Positions 35,494 to 36,351 of a DNA stretch of 64,000 bases are shown here, in pieces. The first letter of the stretch is position 1, and every line of letters begins with the position of its first letter. The notes under the pieces are model-generated. The model saw only the letters and a list, made by a program, of their open reading frames with translations, made no database searches and had not been told where the DNA came from. The DNA is from Alphaproteobacteria bacterium (GTDB lineage: Bacteria > Pseudomonadota > Alphaproteobacteria > Sphingomonadales > Sphingomonadaceae). The position numbers were made by a program, and so were the translations under genes. The DNA is taken from NCBI GenBank assembly GCA_003241875.1, contig QBLU01000011.1:1-64000 (forward strand), in the 5' to 3' direction.

Positions 35494-36182
35494 CCACCAG
35501 GGGCCCCAAGACAGCGAAACACCCCAAAGCCCGCGGCGCTGCGTCCGTCGCCGGAGCGCGGATTTCCTTCGCGCATGAAATCCGTATCGGTGGCCGCGTG
35601 GCAGGTGTCGACGAGGCCGGCCGGGGGCCCTGGGCCGGGCCGGTGGTTGCCGCAGCGGTCGTGCTCGACCCCGATTGCTATCCCGACGGCCTCAACGACT
35701 CCAAGCAATTGACCGCCGAGCGTCGCGCCGCGCTGCGCCTGATGCTGCAGGATTGCGCCGAGATCGGCGTCGGCATGGCGTCGGTGGCTGAAATCGACAG
35801 CCTCAACATCCATTGGGCAACGATGCTGGCGATGGAGCGCGCCGTCGCCGCCCTGCCACGCCCGTGCGGTCATGTGCTCGTCGACGGCAACCTGTTGCCG
35901 CGCTGGTCGCAGCCCGCCACCGCGCTGGTCGGCGGCGACGCGCTGTGCCTGTCGATTGCCGCCGCCTCGATCATCGCCAAGACGGTGCGCGACGCGATCA
36001 TGGAAGACCTGTGCAACGTCCACCCCGGCTATGCCTGGCGCAGCAACAAGGGTTATGGCACGCCGGAACATGCCGCCGGCCTGAGGGCGCAGGGGCCGAC
36101 GCCGCATCACCGCCAGAGCTTTGCCCCGGTGCGCGAATGGCAGACCCTGGAGCCGCGGCGGTTCCGGAAATCCGGCGACTGA
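35490..36182 (+). CDS. rnhB: Ribonuclease HII
   Basis: VAGVDEAGRGPWAGPVVAAAVVL, LNDSKQLTAERR, AAASIIAKTVRD and GYAWRSNKGYGTPEH. Confidence 0.95.
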   Translation: MTTRGPKTAKHPKARGAASVAGARISFAHEIRIGGRVAGVDEAGRGPWAGPVVAAAVVLDPDCYPDGLNDSKQLTAERRAALRLMLQDCAEIGVGMASVAEIDSLNIHWATMLAMERAVAALPRPCGHVLVDGNLLPRWSQPATALVGGDALCLSIAAASIIAKTVRDAIMEDLCNVHPGYAWRSNKGYGTPEHAAGLRAQGPTPHHRQSFAPVREWQTLEPRRFRKSGD

Positions 36183-36351
36183 GTCTTTTCGGCAACACGC
36201 CAGTGCTGGTGGTGCCGGCGGTCGTGGGACTCAAGATGCGGTTATCTGGAGTCGTTTCGCAGCGAATCGCGCCAACGCAATGATTCGACGGCGATTCCAC
36301 TCGACATGACGCGCGGGTTGACGGCGATTCGGCGATGACTCATGGCGATTC
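36181..36351. promoter_or_regulatory. Cluster of nine GANTC sites upstream of ccrM
   Basis: GANTC starts at 36181, 36228, 36249, 36264, 36282, 36293, 36326, 36337 and 36347, read directly from the sequence. Confidence 0.75.

Follow-up and report, generated by a model that had tools for sequence, protein, structure and literature searches.

A conserved candidate promoter containing GANTC sites within a GANTC cluster upstream of ccrM in a sphingomonad

CcrM timing is known mainly from Caulobacter, where ccrM is driven by CtrA and, in C. crescentus, has been described as transcribed from hemimethylated DNA only, its CtrA-activated promoter being active solely in that state (PMC2217572). Two further systems are relevant here. 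The sigma-70 polymerase is stimulated by GcrA at methylated promoters (PMC7403470), and a GANTC site between the -35 and -10 elements is a mark of a class of Caulobacter promoters whose activation falls at 40-60 min of the cell cycle (PMC4287350). In Agrobacterium tumefaciens, methylation represses the gcrA promoter, which carries six GANTC in 250 bp, and does so even in E. coli (PMC11514494). In their survey, Brilli et al. found CtrA sites often at ccrM in rhizobia and missing elsewhere, and counted GANTC upstream of cell-cycle genes without drawing a conclusion on control (PMC2877005). In the literature searched, chiefly the main text of openly available papers, we found no earlier description of the core promoter or of the upstream array reported below.

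The locus studied here lies in a window of 64 kb (the whole stretch of DNA that was analysed) and contains two adjacent genes on which the following description depends:

35490..36182, + strand: rnhB, ribonuclease HII, the upstream neighbour (Pfam RNase_HII)
36378..37448, + strand: ccrM, predicted GANTC DNA adenine methyltransferase (Pfam N6_N4_Mtase and RAMA; 6pbd CcrM)

The ccrM product matches N6_N4_Mtase (E 1.2e-66) and a C-terminal RAMA domain (E 1.2e-17) in Pfam, its closest solved structure is 6pbd CcrM (E 4.3e-158, residues 16-364), and by homology it probably methylates GANTC. The gene is single-copy in the genome and the local order is thiD-like kinase, rnhB, ccrM and M13 peptidase; among named relatives, Sphingomonadales bacterium UBA6157 (L001, 90%) and strain AAP81b (L002, 82%) are closest. 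Viral spread of ccrM was considered and rejected, the single viral relative being distant (27% identity).

Like CcrM-bearing genomes, of which GANTC avoidance is typical (PMC3973325), the window strongly avoids this site, with 74 GANTC against 268.6 in dinucleotide-preserving shuffles and a rate of one per ~980 bp outside the cluster. A preliminary description had placed nine GANTC ahead of ccrM, and all nine begin where it put them, at 36181, 36228, 36249, 36264, 36282, 36293, 36326, 36337 and 36347. Since the window is depleted in GANTC, nine sites in 171 bp far exceed both the local rate (0.17 expected at the window background; Poisson P(>=9) = 3.5e-13) and that of shuffled composition (0.72 expected; P = 7e-8). 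No other separate 171-bp stretch of the window holds more than three, and the rnhB and ccrM coding regions, said to hold a site or so each, contain exactly one each (35697 and 37203). Genome-wide, the comparison consisted of two pattern searches of the 3.82 Mb genome for three GANTC within ~75 bp, which leave some possible triples uncovered; overlapping triples were found only at the ccrM cluster, the remaining matches being lone triples here and there and, on contig C45, a tandem repeat, so that these two patterns matched no cluster of comparable density. A second, smaller group of three GANTC within 31 bp (GATTC, GAGTC, GAGTC) was observed at 1300-1330 of the window.

Comparison among loci showed that in the 3' part of the cluster two GANTC sites are built into a predicted promoter:

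36318..36323, + strand: predicted -35, TTGACG; TTGAC in 53/53 Sphingomonadales, at a fixed distance from GANTC in 33/69 family-level loci
36326..36330, + strand: core GANTC (GATTC) in the -35/-10 spacer; a GANTC 3-4 nt past TTGAC is conserved
36337..36341, + strand: core GANTC overlapping the predicted -10, its last C being the first -10 base
36341..36346, + strand: CATGGC, the predicted -10, spaced 17 bp from the -35; the 89-locus consensus is CANNNT
36347..36351, + strand: ninth GANTC, just 3' of the predicted -10; not kept in L001, L002, L003 or L069

The general pattern is TTGAC-N3/4-GANTC-N5/6-TGACTCA, one GANTC lying between the -35 and -10 elements and one overlapping the latter. In a family-level sample (about one genome per family across Alphaproteobacteria, 69 ccrM upstream regions), TTGAC-N14-GANTC was present in 29 and the N15 form in four, 33/69 together, whereas shuffled upstream regions gave at most three TTGAC-GANTC pairs at any spacing and the interior of ccrM none at 14. 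The extra GANTC in these loci usually lies 3-5 nt after TTGAC, and of the 42 Sphingomonadales loci that carry the double motif, 40 have their second GANTC exactly 14 nt after it. When the hexamer at 17-bp spacing was examined in 89 core loci, many of them related and a few genomes counted twice, its second base was A in 87 and its sixth base T in 62. These are the most important positions of a sigma-70 -10 element. Nineteen loci have their first in-frame start codon at +1 to +4; in the others it is mostly at +17 to +28. As neither the -10 nor the start-codon regularities were built into the search, the core was identified as a promoter, a status well supported by sequence. It fits the sigma-70 type: the conserved family shows a TTGACA-like -35, a spacer of ~17 bp and A2/T6 in the -10. 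In the window, however, the -10 region reads GACT-CATGGC (36337-36346) and its sixth base is C in place of the conserved T, which counts against the reading proposed below, as does the absence of the exact core from about half of the family-level loci.

The predicted promoter also bears on where the gene begins. The ATG at 36342, with which the longest ccrM ORF opens, falls in the predicted -10. Because the core covers 36318-36346, this codon would be part of the promoter; the likelier start is ATG 36378, which follows AGAAGG (36365-36370). Transcription is predicted to begin near 36353, and the first 12 codons of the longest ORF (36342-36377) are probably untranslated. We also noted, in the predicted 5' leader, an inverted repeat TTCTCGA-N6-TCGAGAA (36349-36368) that overlaps the likely ribosome-binding site AGAAGG and was not seen in the L001 alignment.

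Upstream of the core, the remaining sites form an array whose members belong to longer conserved words:

36181..36197, + strand: element A1, GAGTC-TTTTCG-GCAACACG, with the first array GANTC; its 5' end falls in the rnhB stop codon
36228..36245, + strand: element B, GACTCAAGATGCGGTTAT, right half-site of a dyad; kept in L001, L002, L003 and L069
36249..36259, + strand: C-like element, GAGTCGTTTCG; site kept in L001 and L003
36264..36268, + strand: array GANTC (GAATC); kept in L001 and L069
36282..36286, + strand: array GANTC (GATTC); kept in L001, L002, L003 and L069
36293..36297, + strand: array GANTC (GATTC); kept in L001, L002 and L003

In the 320 bp ahead of ccrM, 53 Sphingomonadales have 3-10 GANTC (mean 6.8, against 0.46 expected from the flanks), and in 51 of 52 the densest 200 bp of the locus is the ccrM upstream region. 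The central base is G or C (GACTC or GAGTC) in 80% of array sites compared with 24% of background ones. Four words recur: A1, GAGTC-N6-GC[CA]ACACC; A2, 29 bp further; B, GACTCaacATctgGTG; and C, GACTC-GTTTCGTTC. In 31 loci A2 and B together make an inverted repeat, CACnAgATgTTGAGTC, whose captured halves are constantly 12-13 bp apart. The A1 pattern GAGTC-N4-8-C[CA]ACA was found in 40/53 Sphingomonadales, a B-like GACTC[AC]A in 36/53 and a C-type GACTC-N-TTTCGTT in 25/53, and the GAGTC-N6-GCNACACC form of A1 occurs about once per genome in most genomes of the same family. A second A1-like place (G019:C3:51014), isolated beside an OmpR-type response regulator and without an array, was taken as a chance match. 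The lineage of the window has lost A2 and kept A1, B, the C-like word and three further sites; in the alignment with L001, 39 of 45 bases inside GANTC sites are identical, against 78 of 126 elsewhere. These words look like protein-binding sites. The array is a putative control region specific to Sphingomonadales, most members having an inverted-repeat putative operator of which the window retains one half. Just 3' of the core, DnaA-box-like words (TTATCCACA or TGTGGATAA) were noticed in L027, L053, L054, L010, L050 and L051, and under a loose pattern in 15/53 Sphingomonadales; they are absent in the window. A GTTAAC resembling a CtrA half-site often follows element C (23/53, for example in L006, L012, L014, L026, L033 and L057).

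The sites are kept across Sphingomonadales and the core pair across the class, and neither pattern search met a matching density elsewhere in the genome, as expected from the proposal, in the preliminary description, of an autoregulatory methylation switch. At the level of sequence anatomy a methylation-linked control region of ccrM, with its core promoter, is well supported, and the description can be extended, since particular conserved words enclose the sites and one of them overlaps the -10 element itself. The argument from helical phase was not supported: the sites show no general ~10.5-bp periodicity, in the family sample no peak near 10.5 appears among site pairs more than 11 bp apart, and the core pair, 9-11 bp apart, is the only one regularly spaced. 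Three copies of GGCGATTC are indeed present, but only that at 36323 is retained in the nearest relative, and we rejected the triple repeat as a functional unit.

The core is present in most Sphingomonadales and in many alphaproteobacterial families. It was absent from locus L203, which we take to be Caulobacter-like (97% identical to a C. crescentus CcrM sequence), from the other sampled members of that family and from every named member of Hyphomicrobiales in the sample, while a different family of the order to which L203 belongs has it in 4/5. In the window, the 350 bp ahead of ccrM contain no TTAA-N7-TTAA CtrA box at up to one mismatch, although a divergent or half site may be present. More generally, a CtrA-like box (at most one mismatch) occurs in 7/89 core loci and in 44/90 others (Fisher 6e-10); informative pairs were scarce in a phylogeny-aware test (median p 0.125), the comparison may be confounded by GC content, and for these reasons an exchange of the core for CtrA control between lineages is only suggestive. 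In the window genome TTGAC-N14-GANTCA occurs once in 3.82 Mb, at ccrM, and the core as a general regulon promoter was therefore rejected; across the class there are a few occurrences per genome and, among the matches listed, most of those away from ccrM lack the spacer GANTC.

By analogy with the precedents in Caulobacter and Agrobacterium, we propose that the window carries a replication-coupled ccrM promoter whose activity depends on GANTC methylation and by which CcrM would limit its own synthesis, a reading to which we give a probability of roughly 0.6. Its putative sigma-70-type core (TTGACG, 17-bp spacer, CANNNT) carries the GANTC in the spacer and that overlapping the -10. Passage of the replication fork would leave these sites hemimethylated, presumably the active state, and bring the promoter to peak activity; newly made CcrM would then restore full methylation and ccrM transcription would drop, resulting in negative feedback and one burst per replication. 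The usual reader at the core could be GcrA together with RNA polymerase: GcrA is encoded in the genome of the window, and as in GcrA-dependent promoters one GANTC (36326-36330) lies in the spacer. Another (36337-36341) reaches the -10, and GcrA may bind and activate the core. The GcrA motif is YGAKTCG. The contexts of the core sites (GANTCC and TGACTCA) are unlike it, which counts against this reading, and several core-bearing genomes, for example G098, G113, G126 and G141, have no GcrA match, which counts against it as well. GcrA therefore cannot be the reader everywhere, and RNA polymerase may sense methylation directly at the core.

The sign of the response could be the opposite. If GcrA on methylated core GANTC recruited RNA polymerase, CcrM would sustain itself by positive feedback, which we consider unlikely even though GcrA activates methylated promoters (PMC7403470), the Caulobacter mipZ, podJ, flaY and pleC promoters are less active with mutated GANTC (PMC3667746) and GcrA is available in this genome. 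CcrM requires time-restricted synthesis, the closest studied cases (Caulobacter ccrM and Agrobacterium gcrA) point to lower activity when fully methylated, and the core-bearing genomes without a GcrA match are as difficult for GcrA-driven activation. A second explanation, improbable in our view, sees the array mainly as operators for a DNA-binding protein competing with CcrM, methylation being a by-product or the operators being kept unmethylated. The conserved words longer than GANTC, the central G/C bias and the constant spacing of the CACnAgATgTTGAGTC halves would all follow from it, yet it leaves unexplained the fixed core GANTC in distant families that have no dyad as well as the build-up of extra sites, and half of the dyad is lost in the window itself. 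Functionless accumulation of GANTC, by chance or in relaxed intergenic DNA, is hardly credible even though the site is generally commoner in intergenic DNA of Alphaproteobacteria (PMC3973325), given its very low probability under shuffled composition and the conservation of site positions and spacings both within the order and across the class, which already contradicts it; gcrA upstream regions of 30 genomes have only 0-3 sites per 300 bp (mostly 0-1), on which general enrichment at cell-cycle genes was also rejected.

Returning to the replication-coupled, self-limiting promoter, the conserved arrangement hints at an ancient switch, the enzyme curbing its own gene by marking it. As a tentative and rather doubtful extension, the ancestral alphaproteobacterial ccrM promoter might have been the core with one GANTC merged into the -10 and another in the spacer, RNA polymerase sensing methylation without a dedicated reader; CtrA control would have come later in Caulobacteraceae and Hyphomicrobiales, and Sphingomonadales would have added a methylation-sensitive dyad operator for another factor. 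Such a GANTC-fused core suggests a wiring other than that of Caulobacter in much of the class, methylase synthesis being tied to fork passage. If this is true, a change in both core sites would be expected to break the link between ccrM and replication in sphingomonads, and the core would be a compact natural methylation-responsive promoter, while the dyad points to a further factor acting there.

The ccrM promoter described here is a variant of the known methylation-regulated ccrM promoter and not a new kind of system; what appears new beyond site density is a conserved predicted promoter composed partly of sites that the enzyme itself targets, and an order-specific upstream putative operator. 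With the Caulobacter ccrM promoter it shares the gene, the rnhB neighbour, GANTC near the start and a proposed shut-off of ccrM by methylation. In contrast to the window, the start codon at L203 is immediately preceded by two GANTC, with neither the TTGAC-N14-GANTC core nor the array, and for the CtrA control known from the literature on Caulobacter there is no box within one mismatch here. GcrA-sigma70 promoters such as Caulobacter ctrA P1 and podJ P2 (PMC4287350) likewise have GANTC in the -35/-10 spacer, but the window has a further GANTC joined to the -10 at a constant distance, a combination confined to ccrM whereas theirs is common to a regulon, and the GcrA site is putative. The Agrobacterium gcrA promoter (PMC11514494) is similar in its dense array, in belonging to a gene of the CcrM/GcrA circuit and in its proposed shut-off by full methylation; there, however, the array is on gcrA, whereas in the window genome gcrA has no GANTC in the 300-400 bp upstream and ccrM has nine.
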